From Candidatus Poribacteria bacterium (GTDB lineage Bacteria > Poribacteria > WGA-4E > WGA-3G): a DNA stretch of 64,000 bases. Every line of letters begins with the position of its first letter. Within the stretch, counting starts at the first letter, position 1. This document shows positions 8,713 to 61,539 of this stretch, piece by piece. The position numbers and the translations under genes were made by a program. The notes beneath the pieces are model-generated. The model was not told the DNA's origin. It made no database searches and saw only the letters and a program-made list of their open reading frames with translations. The stretch covers positions 1-64,000 of the forward strand of contig PYJD01000021.1 of NCBI GenBank assembly GCA_003635315.1, read 5' to 3'.

Positions 8713-9543
8713 CTAATAATTGAAGGCAACCATTTCTTGGCTTTTATTTTGAGTAACATATTGCAACGATCTCATCAAGGTAATAGATCTAACAGTATAG
8801 GAATCAGGAAGGTCAAATATTTGTGGGTGATTTTGTTCGGATAAAACGATTTTATTTTTTAATTCGATAGTTCTTAAAAATTGATTGAACTCACCTAAAT
8901 CAAGAACTGCATTATAATGCCCATTAGTGTTATTGAAATAGGGTGGGTCAAGATAGAAAAAAGAGTTATTGAGACAAGCAAAATCTTTGTAATCCTTGTT
9001 CATTATTGTTAAGTTTTGAATGATTTTACTTAAATCTAACAGTGAACCAAGATTTACTTTAGGACATGTGCTTCCTTTTCTGATAGATGTATTAAATTTA
9101 TTATTTGAATTGAATCTGATTTTCCCTGAAAAAGCGTTTTTCGCAAGATAAAGAAAGTTTGCAGCGCCTTGCACCCCGTTTTCTAAACAGAGTTCTCGGA
9201 CGTGGTAGTAATATTCTGTAGAAGAATTATTGTAGTGTTCGTTATACAGTTCCCATAAGTGTAATGGAGATGTTTGAACGTGTCGTATAAGATTAACAAC
9301 AATAGGATTATTGTCGTTATAGGTAACGTTATGAGATCCAAACCTTTTACTCGCATAAAATGAAAAAGCTCCTCCACCACCAAAAATATCGAAAATATGA
9401 CAGGCAAGGTCATCAGGTATTATTTTATCAAAAATATTACTGAATCCTGCTTTACATCCAACGTAGGGAATTATCTTTAAATCCGTTCGCTTGTTTGTTA
9501 CAAAGAACTCGGATTGCTGTATACTCGTACAGTCTTTATTCAT
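8713..9543 (-). CDS. D12-class (Dam-type) N6-adenine DNA methyltransferase
   Basis: The start at 9543 (MNKDCTSIQ) has AAGAGAA nine bases upstream and is preferred over 9618; it gives 276 residues. YVGCKAGF and FDIFGGGGAFSFYASK form the S-adenosylmethionine-binding region and FYLDPPYF the catalytic motif, in the alpha-class order of D12 methylases such as Dam and DpnM. It would methylate adenine in a short palindrome to protect the host from the adjacent predicted nuclease. The recognition site cannot be read from the sequence. Confidence 0.9.
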   Translation of the reverse strand: MNKDCTSIQQSEFFVTNKRTDLKIIPYVGCKAGFSNIFDKIIPDDLACHIFDIFGGGGAFSFYASKRFGSHNVTYNDNNPIVVNLIRHVQTSPLHLWELYNEHYNNSSTEYYYHVRELCLENGVQGAANFLYLAKNAFSGKIRFNSNNKFNTSIRKGSTCPKVNLGSLLDLSKIIQNLTIMNKDYKDFACLNNSFFYLDPPYFNNTNGHYNAVLDLGEFNQFLRTIELKNKIVLSEQNHPQIFDLPDSYTVRSITLMRSLQYVTQNKSQEMVAFNY

Positions 9544-9988
9544 TTTATCAATTCTCTTGTTGTATACATTCGACTTTATCATAAGGGATAGTGTATTATA
9601 AGAGTTCTGATATTGCAAGCAAAATAACTGTGTATCCCAAAATAACTAATCGTGTATTTAATTTAGATTTACCTATTGAAAGATATTGATACGATGTAAT
9701 ACCGATCAATGGGGTTATTATTCCTGTGTTGAGACAGGTAAACCTACTTATATTCATCATATTTTTGTGCAAGAGTGTTACGTGTCGTAACGCACAGGAC
9801 TTTGTTTCGAAACATATTTTTTGTGAATTTCATGGATTTTAGACTTCTCAGGTTAGCGTGTATCGCACTGTCGGATTTCAGCACTGTCAAGCCTGATATC
9901 TTGTTTAATAATTCTCGTTCGGTTGTTTTAAACTGTTCGGTTTGGTGGGATCGTATCAAGTGTATTTGAGTGCCTTTAGTGGAGCAAG
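9544..9988. other. Intergenic with no supported gene
   Basis: A 71-codon minus-strand frame at 9744-9959 has a charged, protein-like composition but starts at TTG without a ribosome-binding site and overlaps an equally long plus-strand frame. It may be a gene fragment. Nothing else is recognisable. Confidence 0.3.
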
Positions 9989-10630: not shown

Positions 10631-11026
10631 TTAATCTTGGTACGGGTTTAAAACCCATCCTGCCCGATACACATTACAACACGGGCATGTGCATTGAGTG
10701 GTCGAATTTGTTTCCTCTGTAAGGGAAAAGACTGATCCGTATAAGCTAATAGATAGTATACATAACCTCCCTATTAAGGCACCGACGATTACCCCAGCAA
10801 CAGGGATAAATGTCGAAATATCTTCTATATCTTTTTTCCAAGTCTGTACCTCTTGGGAATATACAATAATATATGCGTAATATCCAACCACAACCGTAAG
10901 TAAAAACAGGGCAAAACCAGCTTTGTTTTTACGCCAGAAGTTTCTCACAAATCGACCAAGAGGTTTTATATCGCTCCAATACGTTCCAAGACTCGCCAAA
11001 ACCACCTTATAAAACTTTTCATTCAA
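10631..11026 (-). CDS. Two-TM membrane protein coupled to GIY-YIG protein
   Basis: The 131-residue protein has two hydrophobic segments at about residues 35-56 (GFALFLLTVVVGYYAYIIVY) and 72-96 (FIPVAGVIVGALIGRLCILS), separated by a short charged loop, and a C-terminal CTCPCC cluster that could bind metal. It starts at TTG 11026, inside the last codons of the upstream GIY-YIG gene (8-base overlap), so the two are probably co-translated. The family is not recognised. Confidence 0.55.
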   Translation of the reverse strand: MNEKFYKVVLASLGTYWSDIKPLGRFVRNFWRKNKAGFALFLLTVVVGYYAYIIVYSQEVQTWKKDIEDISTFIPVAGVIVGALIGRLCILSISLYGSVFSLTEETNSTTQCTCPCCNVYRAGWVLNPYQD

Positions 11027-11363
11027 ATCTCTTATTCAGGGGCGGTTGATATTTACGAATCAAATCCTCTTCGATTTTGTTTCTATTCCCATCGTTTAGA
11101 TCGGAATAAACACATACACAATTGCCTCCATTTCGAAAGACAGAATTCCATTTATCATGCAATCTGGTGAGTCTTCTCGGAAACGAAATAGATTGTCCAA
11201 TGTACAATAGATTATGTGTGCCACTGCCTTGAGAATTAATCTCCCGTCTTGAGAAAATATAAACACCTCCAATATCTTTGAATTCTGTTCCGATAGGGTA
11301 TACTTGAAAAATATATTGATGTCCTGTAACACCATAAAAAGCAAAATCTTCTATTTTGGACAT
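11019..11363 (-). CDS. GIY-YIG nuclease-superfamily protein
   Basis: ATG 11363 (MSKIEDFAFYG) is preceded by AGAAGGGAAA and is preferred over the frame's far end at 11462, giving 114 residues. The GIY-YIG signature is complete: GGVYIF, then LLYIGQS, the Arg of FPRRLTRLHDKW, a Glu in KIEEDLIRKY, and the Asn of PPLNKR. A single small domain without a DNA-binding partner domain is typical of UvrC-like or phage-like GIY-YIG proteins. It is followed by the overlapping membrane-protein gene, which suggests a two-gene unit of unknown purpose. Confidence 0.75.
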   Translation of the reverse strand: MSKIEDFAFYGVTGHQYIFQVYPIGTEFKDIGGVYIFSRREINSQGSGTHNLLYIGQSISFPRRLTRLHDKWNSVFRNGGNCVCVYSDLNDGNRNKIEEDLIRKYQPPLNKRFE

Positions 11364-11549
11364 TGTCGTTTCCCTTCTATCCGTTCTATTTATAACCTTG
11401 GAGGTACACCGCTTCATGCACAGACATCCCGATCTCACTCGGTAATGGAGGAGACACCCCAAGCGTTCCTATTAAATCCTCTACCAACGATGCTAAGAAA
11501 TTGTATCATAGTTTCCATTTGACAACAAATAAATTCATTGCGTTCTATA

Positions 11550-11579: not shown

Positions 11580-11644
11580 ATCGAATATGGGACAGAATGA
11601 TAACCAATCAACCGCAAGTCCATTAAATACCTCTGAAGGACGAC

Positions 11645-13243
11645 ATGAATACAGCAAAGAACAATATAAAACTCAAACTTGAGAACAACACAAACATTTC
11701 AGTAAAAGGGTATATCGCGCCTATCGAACACACACTATCTCACTTCCACAAAGAGTGGGATACCTTAGCAAATCTACATGTTGCGGAACCAGAAAAAGAA
11801 CACCCCCTCTCAGTTTTTCAAGCCTTTCTTCCCTCAGAACCCGTATCTATCGGTGAGTGCTGGCAGCCAAAAAGCGATGGTATAACAGAATTGCTTCAGC
11901 AATTACATCCTGCAACAGAATTATTGGACACACATACGCCTACCGGGGATGCTCCAGGCTTATGGACATGTCTGCGTGCATATAACGATAGTTACGCCGA
12001 CATTGCCTTTCGTATCCATGCAGCCTTTCGCTTTGATGATGGCACTTTAACCCCCTCACAGTTTAAAGGCAATCTCATAATTGACAGAATTGATGGAAGT
12101 GTTTCCTACTTTAGAATGTATGTTCCTGATGGTCCAGTAAATCTTGATATCGTCTGGTACGAAGATAAAGATAAACATAGCGGAATCACGGATGCTGGTC
12201 TATGTACACAAATGGAACTCTGGTCTGGTATGGAGGATCCAACCAAGAAGATCGAATATACTGAAAGTATAACACAGGAAGAAGCAGAACGACTTTTGAT
12301 ACTCCGTTTCTACGAAGCAGAACAGATTAACTGGGTTCCACCAGAGGAAGCCATAGCATTAGCAGAAAAAGAGGTTAAACTCATCCATGTTATCTCGATA
12401 GATGGACCCTTACACGATGAATCCTGCTGAGGGAGCGGAAAAGGATTGAGGGCAGGTGTCCTCTATTGGGATCGATTAATAAAGTTTCTAAACGATAACT
12501 TTATTAACACTTGGGTATCCAACGTTGTATTAGAACGTACACCACGGAAAAAAGCCTACATGATGAATAGACCAAAAAGTGAATCCAGCACTTTCGATAA
12601 AAACCACCCTCTCGCGAAATATATAATGGAGGGTTGGAAGGAACATTCCCCAGTTGATTGTTTAGTTATTGCACCAGAAGGCGATGTGATGGGTAAACTT
12701 CCACTCAACGACTTCTTTGACGCATGTTATGAAAATGACCTTAAAGAGGAAGATGTCTATCTACGGTATCTCAAAGATTCACTAAATGCAAAATTTCCAG
12801 GATTCGATGAGGATACTTCAGATCCTTTGTTAACGGGTTTGAATGTTATTCTAACTCAAGATAATCCTACACAAGAAGTAATACACATCTATCGAACACC
12901 ACGTTACGGATATCAAGATTACAATATCATCACAATCGATACAAGGACTTTTAGAGACGGTGGTATGTTGACAATAGACATAATTGTTGGAAGTGCAAAA
13001 GCAGGGGGTTCATTTGACCTATATGATGGGGATACGGAATTGCCAACAAAAGGTTATCCAGATGAAGCACTTACATCTGCGTGGGATATCCCATCAGGTC
13101 AGAAAGGTAGAATAGAATTTCACTTTGAAGAAGGTAAGATCTTTAAACTCGGTGCTACAGGGACATGGTTCAGTGGTAAGGGAAACATTAATGGTTTTCA
13201 GGCAATAATCACTGTAGATCCAATCGAAAACAGCGAAAAATAA
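11645..13243 (+). CDS. Selenoprotein N-like protein with in-frame UGA (Sec262)
   Basis: Two open frames, 11645-12430 and the stretch ending at 13243, lie in the same frame and are separated only by TGA 12428-12430. Read through as selenocysteine they give 532 residues. Around the UGA the product reads DESC-U-GSGKGLR. The animal selenoprotein N family has the same SCUG redox motif followed by GSGRTLR, preceded by a PPEEAIALA-like helix and followed by LLNxxFxxTW and a later NDFxD block; here these read PPEEAIALA, FLNDNFINTW and LNDFFDA. ATG 11645 follows GAAGGACG. There is no signal peptide, so a cytosolic thiol/selenol redox role is inferred. Residues from about 405 on form an extra beta-rich domain. 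A SECIS-like hairpin begins 17 bases after the UGA. Confidence 0.88.
12448..12463 (+). promoter_or_regulatory. Bacterial SECIS-like stem-loop
   Basis: GAGGGC pairs with GUCCUC (six pairs, one G-U) and closes the tetraloop AGGU. Bacterial SECIS elements lie inside the coding region shortly after the UGA and carry a G at the start of a small apical loop, often as GGU. Here 23 bases separate the UGA from the loop, within the usual range of roughly 16-37. It would recruit SelB-GTP-Sec-tRNA. Confidence 0.75.
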
Positions 13244-14593: not shown

Positions 14594-15403
14594 GTGAAAA
14601 GTATAAATATTTTATGCATAACCTTAATCCTCGTAACATTGATGTTCATTCCACAAATTCAGGCAAAAATAGACCCTAAATCCGCAAGTGGCATCTGGCT
14701 CTTTGATGAAGGCAAAGGGAAAACGGTGAAAGATTTATCAGGTAACGGTAATGACGGAGAAATTATGGGTAATCCCTCATGGGAAGATGGGAAATTTGGG
14801 ACGGCACTACAGTTCGGTGAACCATCTGATTGGGTTCAGGTCAAAGATCATCCGTCCTTACGGGTTTCGAAAGCATACACAGTGATGGCTTGGGTGAATG
14901 CTGAAAGATATTTCTTTCAAGGCACACAATGGCAAGGTATTATTGCAAAGGCAAATAATCCGAGGTCGTATAGTTTCTATACCGATACATCCAAACGCCC
15001 CTTGATTGCTATTCATTTTGGTGGTGCTCACATCGTTGCATTCGGTTCTGAGTTCCCCCTCAATGAGTGGACACATTTAGCTTTTGTTGTAGAATCAGGA
15101 AATAATGGCGGAAAAATAACCGCGTATACAAATGGAAAAATGGTGAAGGAAACACAGAATGCCGCATTAAAAGGGTTACCAGGTGATGGCGATACCAATG
15201 ATGTCGTCATTGGACGAACTCATGAAGGTGCACGTTTTTTCGGGGGTATGATCGACGAAGTTGGCCTTTTCAATGTCGCATTAACCGAAGACGACATGGC
15301 TGATATTGTGGAGGACGGACTCTCACGAATACTTGGAATTACAGCAGTCGAACCTACACAGAAATTAACCACAACTTGGGTAAGGATTAAAACGCAAGAT
15401 TGA
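14594..15403 (+). CDS. Secreted LamG-domain protein with C-terminal TTW tag
   Basis: GTG 14594 follows AAGGAG. A signal peptide (residues 1-24, hydrophobic core INILCITLILVTLMFI, cleavage after IQA) precedes a concanavalin-like LamG/LamGL domain at about 30-235. It has the family blocks GIWLFDEGKGKTVKDLSGNG, WVQVKDHPSL, YTVMAWVNA, EWTHLAFVVE, GKITAYTNGK and GGMIDEVGLFNVAL. Such domains bind glycans or proteins outside the cell. The last residues, QKLTTTWVRIKTQD, match a tag shared with three other secreted proteins nearby. The stop codon overlaps the start of the WD40 gene. Confidence 0.85.
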   Translation: MKSINILCITLILVTLMFIPQIQAKIDPKSASGIWLFDEGKGKTVKDLSGNGNDGEIMGNPSWEDGKFGTALQFGEPSDWVQVKDHPSLRVSKAYTVMAWVNAERYFFQGTQWQGIIAKANNPRSYSFYTDTSKRPLIAIHFGGAHIVAFGSEFPLNEWTHLAFVVESGNNGGKITAYTNGKMVKETQNAALKGLPGDGDTNDVVIGRTHEGARFFGGMIDEVGLFNVALTEDDMADIVEDGLSRILGITAVEPTQKLTTTWVRIKTQD

Positions 15404-17310
15404 TTCAAGTGAAACCGTTATTGTCATTTCATTTAGTACTACTAATTATCTCGTACTTAATTCCATCAACCGGTTTCACCGAATACGAACCCGGCACACA
15501 ACTTGCCCTCCCAGACAGAGCATTAGCTCGTCTGGGAAAGGGGCGGGTACAGGAAATCGCTTTCTCTCCGGATGGAAATACCCTCGCTGTTGCAAGTTCA
15601 ATCGGTGTTTGGCTATACGATATACGTACCTATAAAAAAGTATCACTACTGACTGGACACACAGATACTGTTCATTGCGTCACGTTCAGTCCAGATGGTA
15701 ATACCTTGGTAAGCGGTAGTGGGGACGACACAGTTCGTTTATGGGATGTCCCCACAAAACAACATATCGCTACACTCCAACATACTGGTGTGGTGTTAAG
15801 TGTATCTTTTAGTGGGAATGGTGAATTACTTGCAACGGGATGTGGTTATTCCGTAACACTGGATAGATCTACACCTTTACCTAATCAAGATACAGTTAGA
15901 CTGTGGAATGTTCGTACAAAGAAACATATTGCAACATTTAATGGACATTCTAATTATGTTGACAGTGTAGCGTTCAGTCCCGATGGTAAAATACTTGCTT
16001 CATGCAGCCGGGATAAGACTATCCGGTTATGGAATATTAAATCTGGGAAAAATATCAAAACACTCAAAAGACATACAGATTCTGTTAGATGTGTTAAATA
16101 TAGTCCAAAAGGGAATCTCATAGCAAGTGCCGGTTGTCTTGAAGACAAAAATATCCTATTATGGAATGTGAAGACTGGAAAACACATAAAGACCCTAAAA
16201 GGACACACAAGGGATATCACAAGTATTGCATTTACTTCTGATGGGAAACTAATTGCAAGCGCCGGTGGTGACAACACTGTACGCGTATGGGATGCCAATA
16301 CGGGGTTGGAGAACATCACTCTTACAGGACATACAGATTGGGTAGTAAGTGTTGCATTCAGTCCAGGTAACAACACACTCGCGAGCGCAAGTCGAGATGG
16401 AACTATTCGTCTATGGGATGCAACTACCTTCAAAGGATACACCGACGTCATTATGTGTATTGCATTCAGTCCAGATAGTTCCACATTAGCAAGTACAGGT
16501 TTTGATAAGAAAATCCATCTTTGGGATGTCAACACAGGACAACATAAGAAAGTACTCACAGGACACACAGATTTAGTCTCAAGAGTAGCATTTAATCCCA
16601 CGAACAATACGCTTGTAAGTAGTAGTAAGGATAAAACACTACGACTATGGAATGTTACAACTGGTAAAACCATCAAAATACTCAAAGATAATACATTCCC
16701 TATTGCTATGAGTTCCGATGGCAAAATCCTTGCATGTGGTGGTCCAAATAACACAATACATCTATTAGATGCAACCACAACACATCGAAAGCATACACTC
16801 AAAGGACATAGAGAATTTGTTGATAGTGTAGCTTTTATTCCAGATGGTAACATAATTGCTACAGGTAGTTCGGACAATACCGTAAGGTTGTGGAATACCC
16901 ACACAGGGAAACAGAACAGAGTATTAAATGCGAATATACCATCCTTCAATGAACTCATGTTTAGTCCAGACGGTAATACATTAGCAAGTAATAACCACAA
17001 CAATTCAATACTCCTATGGGACGTTTCTACAGGTAGTTTGAAGAATACATTTGAACACAAGCAAAAAGCAGACGGATATACAGATGGTGCCCAATCTGTA
17101 GGGTTCAGTCCTGATGGTAAATACTTAGTGACAGGGAGCTATTCAGGCAAGGTTCATCTATGGGATATTAATACTGGAGATTTTAGGAGAATACTCAATG
17201 GACATACAGGGAATGTCATAACTGTAGCTTTTAGTCCGAATGGAAAATTCCTCGCTACGGGTAGCACAGACGGAACAATTCTCCTATTTGGTCAAGTCTG
17301 GAAAGACTAA
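15400..17310 (+). CDS. Exported WD40-repeat protein, 14 repeats
   Basis: The frame starts at TTG 15400, overlapping the LamG stop by four bases; GTG 15409 is an alternative. An N-terminal signal peptide (SFHLVLLIISYLIPSTGF) is followed by 14 WD40 units of about 42 residues, each with the pattern VxSVAFSPDGxxLAS, DxTIRLWD and GHT. Fourteen repeats are enough for two seven-bladed propellers and fill residues about 45-636. There is no kinase or other enzymatic domain, unlike many bacterial WD40 proteins. It probably acts as a binding scaffold outside the cytoplasm, with its co-translated LamG partner. Confidence 0.85.
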   Translation: MIQVKPLLSFHLVLLIISYLIPSTGFTEYEPGTQLALPDRALARLGKGRVQEIAFSPDGNTLAVASSIGVWLYDIRTYKKVSLLTGHTDTVHCVTFSPDGNTLVSGSGDDTVRLWDVPTKQHIATLQHTGVVLSVSFSGNGELLATGCGYSVTLDRSTPLPNQDTVRLWNVRTKKHIATFNGHSNYVDSVAFSPDGKILASCSRDKTIRLWNIKSGKNIKTLKRHTDSVRCVKYSPKGNLIASAGCLEDKNILLWNVKTGKHIKTLKGHTRDITSIAFTSDGKLIASAGGDNTVRVWDANTGLENITLTGHTDWVVSVAFSPGNNTLASASRDGTIRLWDATTFKGYTDVIMCIAFSPDSSTLASTGFDKKIHLWDVNTGQHKKVLTGHTDLVSRVAFNPTNNTLVSSSKDKTLRLWNVTTGKTIKILKDNTFPIAMSSDGKILACGGPNNTIHLLDATTTHRKHTLKGHREFVDSVAFIPDGNIIATGSSDNTVRLWNTHTGKQNRVLNANIPSFNELMFSPDGNTLASNNHNNSILLWDVSTGSLKNTFEHKQKADGYTDGAQSVGFSPDGKYLVTGSYSGKVHLWDINTGDFRRILNGHTGNVITVAFSPNGKFLATGSTDGTILLFGQVWKD

Positions 17311-55394: not shown

Positions 55395-56100
55395 TTTACA
55401 ATAAATGTAATGAGAATACTATGAATTCGGTTCGTGGAATCCACTTCGATTCCGATAATCAAGAAATCAACGGTATGAATGACATAAAAACATTCTCCGT
55501 GAATTCGTCGTGGTTTGGAAAACCTTCCTTCCAAAACCTAATACTAAAATTCGTAAGGAAGTATCATACACTTTCATGTTAGTAAAAATATAATAGAGTG
55601 TGTTATTTTTTACACATGATAGTATTTTCTTACTAATCTACCCGATTCTTAGTATAATCTATTAATTACCTACATTTCCACCACACAATCTCGCTTAAAG
55701 GTCGCTTTAAGCGAGATTGTCCTTCTAATAGAATTAATACTGTCACCATACATACTCCAATTGTTTATTCATTCTCAACTTGATGTAATAAATGATGGTA
55801 TTTCTAAAGATATACTGTCATAGTTATACTGAAATTAGTAGCCATATTATGGAGATCATATAGATGTACTAAATATTGGCACGGAATTTGCTCATAGCAA
55901 CACAAAGGAATAACTTGATAGCAAGTTATCAAATGAATTATGAACGTCAAATAGATATCATTTGAATTTTTAGTATCATACACAATAGAAGAACGGATTT
56001 TCATATCAATTAATAATATTTACACATTCAATGTAGATTTTTTCTGTAATAATTAATAGACTTCAAGTTTCAGTTTATTGGACGCTTAGGAGACTTAACG
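55395..56100. other. Intergenic spacer before the alpha-2-macroglobulin gene
   Basis: The 706 bases hold no supported coding frame. A perfect palindrome lies at 55685-55720. Short GC-rich inverted sequences around 55430-55550 resemble repeat debris. The promoter of the macroglobulin gene is probably in the AT-rich last 100 bases. Confidence 0.4.
55685..55720. terminator. Perfect 16-base-pair hairpin, candidate bidirectional terminator
   Basis: ACAATCTCGCTTAAAG pairs completely with CTTTAAGCGAGATTGT around GTCG. A weak pyrimidine run (CCTTCT) follows on the plus strand. It lies about 290 bases after the diheme-barrel gene, so it could terminate that transcript or be a repeat. Confidence 0.5.
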
Positions 56101-59100
56101 ATGAAAACTAAACAATTATACATAGGCGTTGTTGGAATACTCTCTTTGCTTTTATTGATAATAGGTTCTCTATATATTCATAGTCTGTCCTCAGGTTCAA
56201 AAACCCGTGTCCATGTCAAATCTTTCACACCAAAGGGTGAAAAAGTCCTTCAATGGGTAGACTTTACATTTACATTTTCCGAACCTGTTATAGATAATTC
56301 ACTGGTTAACACCGAATTGCCAAGTCAGGCAGTTCAATTTACACCTACTGTTAAAGGAGTAACCCGTTGGATTAAGCGTGATACAATACGCTACTTTTTG
56401 GAAAGTCCTTTAGCACCATCCGCAAGTTATACCGTCGTACTCTCACCAAAATTGCATCAAAGTTCACTGGGTTTTGTCATTACTGGTAACAGAAAATTCA
56501 CTTTTTTGACAGAACCATTCCGTATTGAAAAGAAAAATCTCGAATTTAAATATACCAAGACACATGCCAAAGTTATAGGGAAGTTAGCCTTTAACTATCC
56601 TGTTAATATTGCCGATTTACGCTCAAATCTATCTCTGAAACTTCAAGATAATGTTCTGTTACCTTATACACTTCAACCAGAAAGTGGAATCGCGAAAGAG
56701 ATATCAATTGAGACTGAAGAAATTCCACGGCTGCTTGGAAATCAATCTCTAAAGGTACAAATTGATAAAGGATTTAATTGTATCGGTGGAAAAATTGGAT
56801 TGAAGCAGGCAAGTATGCGGACATTAACCTTGGCTGGAAGGGATAGACTTAGAGTTACATATGCAAATGTAGATGAATATTCTGGGAGTCCTCATATACG
56901 ACTTCGATTTAGTTCGAATGTACCTGTTGACACCATCCAACCATACATTCAAATTGACCCCGAGTTAGAAACACAGATTATCCAACGTTATAATGGTATT
57001 GATATTTATGGTGATTTTCAACGTCGCAGTAAATATAAAGTCAGCATACAGGAAGGATTAGCTGCACCTGACGGATCCATATTAAAGAAACCTTATTCAA
57101 AAACACTTACCATACCAGATGTACCTCCGCAGATTCGTTTTGTCGGAAATGGGTTTTTCTTAACTCGAAACCAAAACATGAATCTCGGATTAGCGACAAT
57201 AAATATACAGAATGTCAACCTTCAAATTGAAAAGGTATTTGCTAACAATCTTATATATGCATCTAAACTCAGTAATTGGAGTACATATACAAGCGGTTTA
57301 GGAAAACCTATTCATTCCGGTAGTCTCTCAATTACATCAAAACTGAATGAAGAGGTAAAAACCCCTATTGATATAGGGAAATATCTTGATGATAGATATA
57401 CTGGTATCTTTAAAGTCACTGCCAGACACCCTCATAACTATAGACCTCGTGCCACCCAATGGGTAATGCTTACGGACCTGGGTATTATATCAAAGAGAGC
57501 AGGGGATGAATTATGGGTATGGGTCAATTCCCTTTCCAACCTAAAACCTGTATCACAAGCAACAATTAAACTTATCAGTGATAACAACCAGACATTACTA
57601 ACCGGTAAAACAAATTGGCAAGGTTTCGTTAAATTCTCCTCTGTTGATCAAAAAACCGAAGGGTTTACACCTTTTATGCTAACAGTGGAAAAAGGTGAAG
57701 ATATATCTTTCATACAACTTAACCGACACCAACTTTCTACTGGTGATTTCAATGTCGGTGGTACAGAATACTTAGAAACCGGATATGATGCATTTCTATA
57801 TACAAGTAGAGGTGTGTATCGTCCTGGAGAAAGAGTAGATATCGCAGGTATAGTCCGTGGAAAAGATAATTTGACACCACCTATTCTTCCGACCCATATT
57901 GAGGTTACCGCACCAGATGGAAGAACAATAAGAGAATTTCAGAAAAATACTGACAAACACGGTGGATGTGAGGTGGAATTGACTTTACCTCCATATGCAC
58001 AAACTGGTGGGTATATCGCCAAGATGAAAGTGGCTGATAAAGAAATTGGACGCGGTCGATTCCAAGTTGAAGAATTTATGCCTGACCGTATGAAGGTGAT
58101 TGTCTCTACAGATAAACCAGAGTATGACATAGGTGATGAGGTAGGTATGGAGGTAACTGCTGTTAACTTGTTTGGTCCACCTGCTACAAACCGAAAAGTT
58201 ACCGCATACTATATGCTTGAAACAGTTCCTTATGTACCACCAGAAAAATGGCGTTCATTCCATTTCTCAAGTACTGCTCGTTTTGAGAAACAACGGATGA
58301 ATTTGAAAGAATCTAAAACTAATGATGAAGGCAAAGTCATATATCAGGTGATACTACCTGAAAAAGTTAAAGCACCTTCACTATTAAATGGCATATTTAC
58401 AGCAAGTGTAAATGAACCGGGTGGTAGAGCGGTTACGGCTTCCCAAAGTGCTATTATTCACCCCTATTCACATTATGTTGGTATCAAACGTTCTAATGAT
58501 GGCGCTATAAACCGTAACCAAGAAGTGGCAATAGACTATATTGCTGTGGATAAGAATGGTAATTCCATGGCAGGTAGAGATCTTTTACTTACTGTGTATA
58601 AAGTTCGCTGGAATACTATTCTCAGAAGAAATTCACGTGGTCAGTATCAATACGTCTCTAATCCTCAAAAAACCACATTGGAATCTCACCCATTAGTCTC
58701 AACGACAGATATAGGCACATTCACATTCACACCTACTGAATATGGTGAGTATCGTGTACAAATAGAGGACACAGTCTCCGGGGCGAAATCGGAAATTAAG
58801 ATGGAAACTTCTGGATGGGGATACGTACCTGTATCTATGGAAAATCCAAGTTTACTTGAGATGACCTTAGACAAAACCGCATACAATCCAGGAGAGATAG
58901 CAAAACTACATGTTAAAGCTCCATTCTCTGGTAAATTATTGTTAACAATTGAACGAGAAAAAATTCTAAGCTATAGAATTGTAAACATTACAGGTAATAC
59001 AGCGAGTTTGAATATACCCGTTCAATACGCTTACAAACCAAACATATATCTATCTGGTACGATAATCCGGTCAACTGAATCACTCAAAGAACATGGTTCG

Positions 59101-61539
59101 GCACGCGCTTTCGGGATAATCCCTTTAAAAATTGATGATACATCAAACCGTTTCACAATTGAACTGGATGCTCCTGAGGAGATTAGACCCAATACTGACG
59201 TTACTGTTAAGTATACTGTAAAGGGTAAAAACAGCGGATTTTCCCAAGTTACGATTGCGGCGATTGACGAAGGAATTCTCCAGTTAACCGATTTCAAAAC
59301 ACCTGATGCCCATAAATACTTCTATAGACAAAGAGGCTTAAAGACTCTTGTACATGATCTATATTCGGCTGTATTACCGGAAATCGAATCGGCGCAAACA
59401 GAATCAAGTACAGGGGGTGATGGAAGTTTAGCTGCAGGTCGGGCAAAACGGCTTAATACAGGAAGCATTATGCGCGTCAAACCGGTATCCCTCTGGTCAG
59501 GTATATTGAAAACAGATCGATATGGAAAAGGTACAGTAGACTTTCATGTACCACAATTTAATGGCACATTAAGAATTATGGCTGTAGCCTATGCCAATAC
59601 AAACTTTGGATCCGGTGAAAAGCCTATTATTGTCCGTGAACCGGTCGTAATCACGCCAACTCTTCCACGTTTCCTTTCCGGTGGAGATCGCATCCAATTT
59701 CCAATAAATGTACATAACGGAACTGGTGTAGATGGAGAATTCAGTGTTGAGATCCAAGCAGAGGGTGATGTTCAATTCCTATCAGATGCCGAAAACGTTG
59801 AAGTCCCAACCGAAAATCGAAAAGTTCAAAAACAGATATATATTGATTCTGATGTTGAAGAGCAACTCTTATTTGAACTACTCACACACGATTCAATAGG
59901 GAAAGCGACCTTCAAAGTATCTGCTATCGGGAACAACGAACGATCAGAAATGACCGTCCAACTCCCACTCAGATCCGCTGCACCTCCTGTAACGGATACT
60001 GGATATGGAGTGGTGAATGCAGATGAACCCGCAGATTTCATACTTCCATCAAACTTTATTGCGGATTCCTCTGAATTTGGTCTAACTGTTTCCCCTTTCC
60101 CCGCAGTTAAATTTGCAGACGGCATTCGTTATCTACTGAGATATCCATACGGGTGTCTTGAGCAAACCACAAGTAAGGTTTTCCCTTTACTATATTTTAG
60201 TGATGTTGCACGCACAGTTGATCATGATCTTGCCACAGATGAACGTGTAAATTATTACATTACTGAAGGAATAAATAAACTCGAAAGTATGCTAACCGGG
60301 CAAGATCATTTCTCCTATTGGCCCGGTGGAGGCTATATTAACCATTGGAGTAGTATATATGCAACACACTTTTTAGTTGAAGCACGAAAATCGGGATATG
60401 AAGTATCTGACCGTGTTTACACGGCAATGCTTAGGGGATTAAGAAATCAAGCAAAGCAGATTTCAAGTAACCAAAGAACAATTGATAAAAACAATAGATA
60501 TAATGCCGAACGGGCAGTCTATGCATGTTATGTTTTGGCCGCAGCGGGACATCCTGAAAAAGGGGTGATGCATTACTTTAAGAATAATCTGCTAAGTGGC
60601 CTTACTGGTTATAGTCGTTTCCAATTAGCAGGTGCATTCGGACTTAGTGGTGATTTGGAAACTGCCCTTTCTATGTTACCTATTTCTATTCCAACATCAA
60701 ACGGTGGTAAAAGACAATCCGGTAACAACTTCAATTCACCTATTCGATCCCAAGCTATAATGCTTGATGTGCTTGCTGAAGTCAATGAAAATCATCCTTC
60801 AATTCCCATGTTGGTCAATAATCTGAGTCAATCTGCATCCCAAAAGAAACGTTGGGGAACAACACAAGAAAATGCGTTTGCTTTTCTGGCATTGGGTAAG
60901 ATATTGAGGAAACAAATGGATGGTAATTACACTGGTACAATTACTATCAATGGCACACATTTGGCTGATTTCGATTCAGAAAAACCATCACTGCGATTAG
61001 CAAATAAAGATTGGGATGGCGCACAGATACAAATCTCTATTGAAGGTGAAGGGAATTGTTATTACCATTGGTCAGCATTTGGCATACGACGTGATTCCTT
61101 TATTCAGGAATATGATCGAGATTTACAGGTGCGACGCCGGTTCCTTAACCAAGATGGAACGCCATACGAAAACGAATTCAGACATGGGGATATGGTGATA
61201 GCAGAAATCACTGTAAAAGCACTTAACTTCAACCTTGAAAACGTCGTTGTTGTCGATATGTTGCCAGCCGGTTTTGAAATAGAGAATGCCAGGTTAGCAT
61301 CCCGTGCCAGTATCCCATGGCTGAAGACTAATGACTTTAAGCCTGATTATGTTGACATACGTGATGATCGTATGATATTTTTCGGCACATTCCCACGACA
61401 AAGAGAACGCAAGTTCCACTACGCATTAAGAGCCGTAACTCGTGGCGAATTTAATCTACCACCTGTATCCGCAGAGGCAATGTATGATCCAGCCAATTCC
61501 TCTGTCGCAAGTAGTGGTAAGATCACAGTTATTGATTAA
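56101..61539 (+). CDS. Bacterial alpha-2-macroglobulin family protein
   Basis: The 1812-residue protein has an N-terminal membrane anchor (IGVVGILSLLLLIIGSLYIHS), a series of MG domains, a bait-type region and the thioester domain with YGCLEQ (Cys1352, Glu1354, Gln1355). The thioester lets the protein trap proteases covalently in the periplasm. Later residues form the complement-like helical domain and receptor-binding-like end (LEYDRDLQVRRRF to PASSVASSGKITVID region). The following gene is pbpC, the conserved partner of the E. coli YfhM-PbpC system: A2M defends when PBP1C repairs a breached envelope. Confidence 0.93.
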   Translation: MKTKQLYIGVVGILSLLLLIIGSLYIHSLSSGSKTRVHVKSFTPKGEKVLQWVDFTFTFSEPVIDNSLVNTELPSQAVQFTPTVKGVTRWIKRDTIRYFLESPLAPSASYTVVLSPKLHQSSLGFVITGNRKFTFLTEPFRIEKKNLEFKYTKTHAKVIGKLAFNYPVNIADLRSNLSLKLQDNVLLPYTLQPESGIAKEISIETEEIPRLLGNQSLKVQIDKGFNCIGGKIGLKQASMRTLTLAGRDRLRVTYANVDEYSGSPHIRLRFSSNVPVDTIQPYIQIDPELETQIIQRYNGIDIYGDFQRRSKYKVSIQEGLAAPDGSILKKPYSKTLTIPDVPPQIRFVGNGFFLTRNQNMNLGLATINIQNVNLQIEKVFANNLIYASKLSNWSTYTSGLGKPIHSGSLSITSKLNEEVKTPIDIGKYLDDRYTGIFKVTARHPHNYRPRATQWVMLTDLGIISKRAGDELWVWVNSLSNLKPVSQATIKLISDNNQTLLTGKTNWQGFVKFSSVDQKTEGFTPFMLTVEKGEDISFIQLNRHQLSTGDFNVGGTEYLETGYDAFLYTSRGVYRPGERVDIAGIVRGKDNLTPPILPTHIEVTAPDGRTIREFQKNTDKHGGCEVELTLPPYAQTGGYIAKMKVADKEIGRGRFQVEEFMPDRMKVIVSTDKPEYDIGDEVGMEVTAVNLFGPPATNRKVTAYYMLETVPYVPPEKWRSFHFSSTARFEKQRMNLKESKTNDEGKVIYQVILPEKVKAPSLLNGIFTASVNEPGGRAVTASQSAIIHPYSHYVGIKRSNDGAINRNQEVAIDYIAVDKNGNSMAGRDLLLTVYKVRWNTILRRNSRGQYQYVSNPQKTTLESHPLVSTTDIGTFTFTPTEYGEYRVQIEDTVSGAKSEIKMETSGWGYVPVSMENPSLLEMTLDKTAYNPGEIAKLHVKAPFSGKLLLTIEREKILSYRIVNITGNTASLNIPVQYAYKPNIYLSGTIIRSTESLKEHGSARAFGIIPLKIDDTSNRFTIELDAPEEIRPNTDVTVKYTVKGKNSGFSQVTIAAIDEGILQLTDFKTPDAHKYFYRQRGLKTLVHDLYSAVLPEIESAQTESSTGGDGSLAAGRAKRLNTGSIMRVKPVSLWSGILKTDRYGKGTVDFHVPQFNGTLRIMAVAYANTNFGSGEKPIIVREPVVITPTLPRFLSGGDRIQFPINVHNGTGVDGEFSVEIQAEGDVQFLSDAENVEVPTENRKVQKQIYIDSDVEEQLLFELLTHDSIGKATFKVSAIGNNERSEMTVQLPLRSAAPPVTDTGYGVVNADEPADFILPSNFIADSSEFGLTVSPFPAVKFADGIRYLLRYPYGCLEQTTSKVFPLLYFSDVARTVDHDLATDERVNYYITEGINKLESMLTGQDHFSYWPGGGYINHWSSIYATHFLVEARKSGYEVSDRVYTAMLRGLRNQAKQISSNQRTIDKNNRYNAERAVYACYVLAAAGHPEKGVMHYFKNNLLSGLTGYSRFQLAGAFGLSGDLETALSMLPISIPTSNGGKRQSGNNFNSPIRSQAIMLDVLAEVNENHPSIPMLVNNLSQSASQKKRWGTTQENAFAFLALGKILRKQMDGNYTGTITINGTHLADFDSEKPSLRLANKDWDGAQIQISIEGEGNCYYHWSAFGIRRDSFIQEYDRDLQVRRRFLNQDGTPYENEFRHGDMVIAEITVKALNFNLENVVVVDMLPAGFEIENARLASRASIPWLKTNDFKPDYVDIRDDRMIFFGTFPRQRERKFHYALRAVTRGEFNLPPVSAEAMYDPANSSVASSGKITVID

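Follow-up and report, generated by a model that had tools for sequence, protein, structure and literature searches.

The window analysed here, a 64,000-nucleotide stretch of contig PYJD01000021.1 of a Candidatus Poribacteria bacterium, carries on its forward strand a gene that resembles animal selenoprotein N (SELENON) and is interrupted by an in-frame UGA (Table 1). From the ATG at 11645 to the TAA at 13241–13243, the TGA at 12428–12430 is the single interruption. Translation table 11 yields an ORF of 261 aa and another of 265 aa that starts at a TTG at 12446; reading the TGA as selenocysteine (Sec) gives one product of 532 residues with U262 within DESCUGSGKGLR. The original prediction of two in-register frames split only by this TGA, with the flanks DESC-U-GSGKGLR, is borne out by the joined translation. 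The predicted hairpin 17 bases downstream, with its loop at 23, is likewise in place, its 6-bp stem being formed by GAGGGC (12448–12453) and GTCCTC (12458–12463) around an AGGT loop (12454–12457).

The neighbouring genes recognised in the window are included in Table 1. Counting both strands, 36 stretches of the window stay open for 250 codons or more, some of them probably not genes; they end in TAA (22), TAG (11) or TGA (3), and one of the three TGA ends is the Sec codon.

Table 1 Features of the SELENON-like locus and other genes in the window
Feature	Position	Strand	Remarks
Putative Shine-Dalgarno-like GAAGGA	11635..11640	+	4 nt 5' of the ATG; suggested by the sequence
SELENON-like selenoprotein gene	11645..13243	+	532 codons counting UGA 262 as Sec; TAA stop follows
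N-terminal, largely beta, SELENON-like region (residues 1–197)	11645..12235	+	holds R123, H125, G142 and N166
Thioredoxin/UAS-like domain (residues 198–389) with the Cys261-Sec262 pair	12236..12811	+	predicted model; fold matches
In-frame UGA, very probably read as Sec (residue 262)	12428..12430	+	frame and TGA conserved in homologues
Bacterial SECIS stem-loop GAGGGC-AGGU-GUCCUC	12448..12463	+	loop begins 23 nt downstream of the UGA
C-terminal beta-sandwich (residues 399–526), predicted	12839..13222	+	absent from core-only relatives
D12-class adenine DNA methyltransferase	8713..9618	-
Small GIY-YIG-like protein	11019..11462	-	below family cut-off
Laminin_G_3 protein, then WD40 protein	14594..17310		ten matched WD40 repeats
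Bacterial alpha-2-macroglobulin-like protein	56053..61539		1828 aa

Conservation of the UGA, its hairpin and the Sec machinery

The codon at the Sec position was counted in 264 copies that are distinct over up to 81 residues and come from 244 sequences, a sample that does not hold every copy of every genome. It is TGA in 260, GGC in two, GGA in one and TCA in one, so that the non-UGA copies have three Gly and one Ser, and Cys occupies the position in none of the 264. Pairs of Sec and Cys homologues are the usual, though not obligatory, support for a selenoprotein. The expectation of Sec or Cys at position 262 in homologues therefore held as regards Sec and failed as regards Cys, with four copies having Ser or Gly instead; we take the four to be rare losses, given that 260 copies keep the UGA. 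A first count had given TGA in all 142 motif-bearing copies, with 12 motif-less ORFs, the Ser copy among them, set aside. In these 142 the C-U pair is invariant, preceded by Ser (82), Ala (56) or other residues (4) and followed by Gly (124) or Ala (18). The Ser copy adjoins the window gene in the tree. In both GGC copies the loop reads AACT, its G lost, on a stem that is kept, and the GGA and TCA copies retain the standard hairpin. The natural presence of Gly and Ser and the lack of Cys among the 264 copies raise the possibility that Cys may be unable to replace Sec here. The Ser/Gly-for-Sec paralogues L017, L224, L225 and L226 all have open frames, L225 and L226 being those that also lack the loop G.

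Both flanks of the UGA are under purifying selection. The median dN/dS is 0.168 on the 5' side (270 pairs) and 0.166 on the 3' side (282 pairs), calculated from non-independent pairs that are 70–97% identical, 12 upstream pairs having been dropped for a dS of at least 2 or undefined. The predicted conservation of coding downstream of the UGA is confirmed by the second of these values.

The rules for bacterial SECIS elements (bSECIS) in PMC13188914 are a loop of 3–9 nt, a stem of 4–16 bp, a G as the first or second loop base, a spacing of 16–37 nt after the UGA and a minimum free energy of −7.5 or lower. The window hairpin satisfies them with its 6-bp stem, AGGT loop and 23-nt spacing (PMC13188914). 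Its energy ranges from −8.9 kcal/mol over 39 nt to −10.7 kcal/mol over 51 nt, and is −5.2 if a 35-nt cut takes off part of the stem. In the family, 256 of the 260 UGAs are followed by a stem of 6 bp or longer that fits the allowed geometry, compared with 15.7% of control sites in the same genes (n = 3900) and 23.6% of 5200 sequences that encode the same peptides with synonymous codons. These figures, together with the TGA in 260/264 copies, place the conservation of UGA and hairpin beyond chance. The mean folding energy in 24 nt, followed from codon −20 to +29, reaches its minimum of −7.4 to −9.0 at +4 to +6, is −5.1 at +7 and is −4.4 or weaker at the other positions. Codon usage in the stem hardly varies: 253 of 260 copies have CTC at Leu+11, 228 of 235 have GCA at Ala+8 and all 260 have AGR at Arg+7. 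Among six other conserved Arg columns, CGN predominates in five and AGA in one (+47). In ten of the 142 motif-bearing copies the usual register has only 4/6 pairs; visual inspection suggests that several of them, of the form GAGRGC-AGTTGA-GCTCTC, pair two bases shifted, a shift that fits 13 copies with a 6-nt loop.

The assembly to which the window belongs (4.33 Mb in 50 contigs) contains the machinery for Sec insertion. The tRNA-Sec gene (76.5 bits, C41:116502–116591), with the anticodon tca according to ARAGORN, adjoins selB (C41:116628–118523, 368.5 bits); selA lies on contig C23 (599 bits) and selD on C37 (365.5 bits), the latter with its own in-frame UGA in KCAGU-ASK. The selA, selB and selC genes that had been looked to as a check are thus present, as is selD, all above curated cut-offs, which among 14 control genomes are reached by tRNA-Sec in five, selB in two, selA in one and selD in two. 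Across the phylum, selB is over its cut-off in 75 and tRNA-Sec in 74 of 84 genomes, so the machinery does not track the SELENON-like family, which occurs in 64 of the 84. Among those 64, selB is not over cut-off in G004, G010, G062, G067 and G068 (73–83% complete), nor tRNA-Sec in G004, G010, G017, G032, G068, G069 and G080; three genomes appear in both lists. Genome incompleteness together with a stricter search filter may explain these gaps.

Predicted domains and the relation to SELENON

The AlphaFold2 model of the window protein, built with 126 homologues, has a mean pLDDT of 88.7 and a pTM of 0.73, and its last third is a beta-sandwich. The top Foldseek matches of the full-length model are beta proteins, matches given without ranges that we take to fit the modelled C-terminal beta-sandwich, and the thioredoxin-like domain was therefore modelled alone. 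Residues 198–389 on their own reach a pLDDT of 88.8, and their best Foldseek matches, with E-values from 1.3e-3 to 0.026 and probabilities from 0.87 to 1.00, are to Thioredox_DsbH, DsbH, AGR3/AGR2 and a human UAS domain. No match has an E-value of 0.001 or better, and the TM-score by target is at most 0.58 among the 50 matches listed. In the model the Cys-Sec pair (SCUG) lies just ahead of a helix. Sequence searches gave nothing better than E 0.0017 in Pfam and E 0.046 in NCBIfam, the former value being the best of weak matches to PF03190 (Thioredox_DsbH) in 17 of 64 domain fragments. One PDB sequence search found nothing up to E 1 and another had a best E of 0.39, so neither gave a solved relative. 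A DUF3485 match in the N-terminal half fell below its cut-off and was dropped. Of 133 complete copies, 128 have at least 480 aa; relatives whose match ends near residue 380–392 occur in other families, with a few in the SELENON-like family too. Two conserved cysteines, Cys109 (124 of 126 alignment rows) and Cys187 (123 of 126), could be further redox thiols.

The human SELENON sequence used for all comparisons is a provisional one, not taken from a database record, and three checks speak for it. Setting Sec at 462 (PMC8967691) puts the end at 590, the length given in PMC12839072, which also writes Sec 458; Arg falls at 291 and 466 in agreement with PMC8967691; and three post-Sec sequons are spaced by 22 and 26, like Asn449, 471 and 497 (PMC10650576). 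A part of 301 residues of this provisional human sequence scores 149.1 bits (E 8.6e-48) against the family profile A1, compared with 3.4 for the best of 2000 shuffles, and 143.0 bits against the profile of clade B (A4). The segment 5' of the motif alone scores 76.7 bits against A1, where the best shuffle again reaches 3.4. A shorter part of 140 residues scores 42.9 bits against A1 (best of 2000 shuffles, 8.7) and, with its first 30 residues containing the motif removed, 10.0 bits, hardly over the best shuffle. The comparison with SELENON is strongly positive over residues ~122–310 of the window protein, given the provisional human sequence. Clade B (12 copies, support 0.852), with a WGxxDDESCU-like motif (L222, L220, L210, L211, L164), accounts for the majority of the highest pairwise scores with the provisional animal sequence. 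In a tree the provisional human fragment forms a long outlying branch, and we therefore do not claim clade B as the animal orthologue.

In the provisional sequence the human residues R291, H293, G315, N340 and R469, the last four of which we take to be disease sites (look-ups for disease variants at these four found none), align with R123, H125, G142, N166 and R269. Across the 126 rows of alignment A2 these are conserved in 126, 125, 126, 114 (with 12 gaps) and 126, respectively. Human R466 aligns with Lys in 119 rows and Arg in seven. R291 is a SELENON disease residue in PMC8967691, from which the R466 and Sec462 numbering also comes.

The suggestion that a bacterial homologue would give a simple, soluble model could apply to the redox core but not to the calcium sensor, because the window copy has neither an EF-hand pattern nor a membrane anchor. 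The EF-hand pattern is found in none of the 133 complete copies, and the window copy has no hydrophobic N-terminus. Judged by simple hydropathy, 66 of 248 copies could begin with a segment resembling a signal peptide, and the family seems to be split between the cytosol and export.

A multicopy family in Poribacteria

Most of the Poribacteria genomes examined carry the SELENON-like family, with many copies in a genome and frequent tandem arrangement, a striking case of selenoprotein gene amplification. The window's genome has nine matching places, seven of which span at least residues 5–482; each of the seven has a single TGA, at the motif, and five of them lie in a row (C17:38089–46180). The family was found in 41 of 59 genomes searched as relatives as well as in the 64 of the phylum noted above, with up to 24 matches per genome when partial stretches are counted. 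Of 160 relatives from a genome collection, the best 80 were kept; these correspond to 73 loci, all 73 titled as Poribacteria MAGs, a phylum described from sponges (PMC5649159). The remainder may include relatives in other phyla. A tblastn search of plasmids and phages, at E up to 1e-5, found no relatives, and none of 45 pattern matches in viral contigs was confirmed as one.

Members of the tandem arrays L056, L058, L066 and L080 are separated by tiny gaps or overlap (for example L058, 2279 versus 2295), and some array members reach ~650–680 aa, perhaps with a second C-terminal domain. The neighbours of the arrays were compared in ten genomes, with names assigned by eye. The most widespread cluster occurs in nine of them; leuD-like neighbours are found in eight, leuC-like in seven and carotenoid-pathway-like in four. 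Such recurrent neighbours suggest a stable position rather than a function. Arrays beside leuC/leuD-like genes are seen at L244, L249, L251, L252, L254, L258 and L263.

Interpretation and comparison with known systems

The UGA at 12428–12430 very probably encodes selenocysteine, and we hold with high confidence that the locus is a single selenoprotein gene, its UGA read by SelB, tRNA-Sec and the bSECIS, whose product is a homologue of the SELENON redox core. In the mechanism proposed, SelB and tRNA-Sec(UCA) would insert selenium at this codon with the help of the hairpin at 12448–12463. The product would consist of the beta-rich N-terminal region, the thioredoxin/UAS-like domain with its Cys-Sec pair and the C-terminal beta-sandwich. 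It is most likely a thiol-selenol oxidoreductase: the thioredoxin-like fold and the adjacent Cys and Sec suggest a cycle between selenol and selenylsulfide. Paralogues with an export signal or, like the window copy, without one would serve different partners or compartments.

That the UGA is instead a true stop, leaving a pseudogene or two proteins made from the two halves, would suit the separate 261- and 265-aa ORFs of a table 11 reading, the second with its own TTG start. Against this stand the UGA retained in 260 of 264 copies, a median dN/dS of ~0.17 on both sides of it, a predicted domain that spans it and the Sec machinery in the genome, and we regard a true stop as extremely improbable. 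Reading of the UGA as Trp by an altered code seems unlikely, as the tRNA-Sec reads UGA and other long frames of the window end in TGA. Since Sec decoding in general competes with termination, the UGA might also act as a selenium-controlled switch, the 261-aa product being made as well and used when selenium is scarce. Such a truncation would sever the thioredoxin-like domain just before the first post-motif helix, which leaves this proposal with little likelihood.

A different question is whether a genuine selenoprotein of generic thioredoxin/UAS-like type has come to look like SELENON by convergence around the motif. The fold matches to DsbH, AGR and UAS proteins, the weak hits of 17/64 domain fragments to PF03190 (best E 0.0017) and the post-motif part of the 140-residue human fragment, which hardly exceeds the shuffles, would all allow it. 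The provisional human pre-motif segment scoring 76.7 bits by itself, far above its best shuffle, and the disease residue R291 (PMC8967691) falling on an invariant column argue against convergence, and we think it very unlikely. As to how homology to SELENON could have arisen, a transfer of the gene between early animals and bacteria associated with sponges, with the selenocysteine redefinition element (SRE) of animals as a relic of the bSECIS, is a link that we put forward as doubtful; were it true, the SRE hairpin would have been kept after Sec insertion had moved to the 3'-UTR SECIS. Mention of a sponge SelN is made in PMC3473315.

The Sec-bearing domain shares its fold with Thioredox_DsbH (PF03190), DsbH, AGR2/AGR3 and UAS proteins, to which the sequence similarity of the bacterial family is marginal; none of them is known to have an adjacent Cys-Sec pair or an N-terminal region like that of SELENON. 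Full-text searches of open-access papers brought up no recognisable report of a bacterial SELENON and no paper that joins Poribacteria with selenoprotein N; an earlier notice may exist in other sources, such as subscription papers or preprints. With the catalogue of prokaryotic selenoproteins in PMC13188914 the family shares a UGA followed by a rule-obeying bSECIS. No row of its Table 1, which has 119 families or subfamilies, names selenoprotein N. The comparison is one of names, and the catalogue includes hypothetical proteins for which no motif is given.

SELENON, a muscle-disease protein in humans to which a calcium-dependent redox control of SERCA is ascribed, is an endoplasmic reticulum membrane protein whose chemistry is hard to study. 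The bacterial family has in common with it SCUG with its Sec and a Lys or Arg four residues on, a thioredoxin-like domain bearing this motif, and a homologous core that corresponds to human residues ~290–511 (the typed fragment starts at 290), with R291, H293, G315, N340, R466 and R469 on conserved columns, all according to the provisional human sequence. Both also have a recoding element 3' of the UGA, the human one being the SRE (PMC8967691, PMC4561486). They differ in that SELENON uses a 3'-UTR SECIS whereas the bacterial family has an in-frame bSECIS, and in that SELENON has an EF-hand and a single N-terminal membrane anchor, both missing from the window copy; chicken SelN also lacks the EF-hand motif, according to the title of a paper cited in PMC8967691. 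The bacterial family in turn has many copies per genome and a predicted C-terminal beta-sandwich that is absent from the provisional human C-terminus. A bacterial branch with neither anchor nor EF-hand isolates the redox core that it shares with SELENON and reveals its invariant residues, some of which are sites of human disease variants (R291 according to PMC8967691, the others as taken above).
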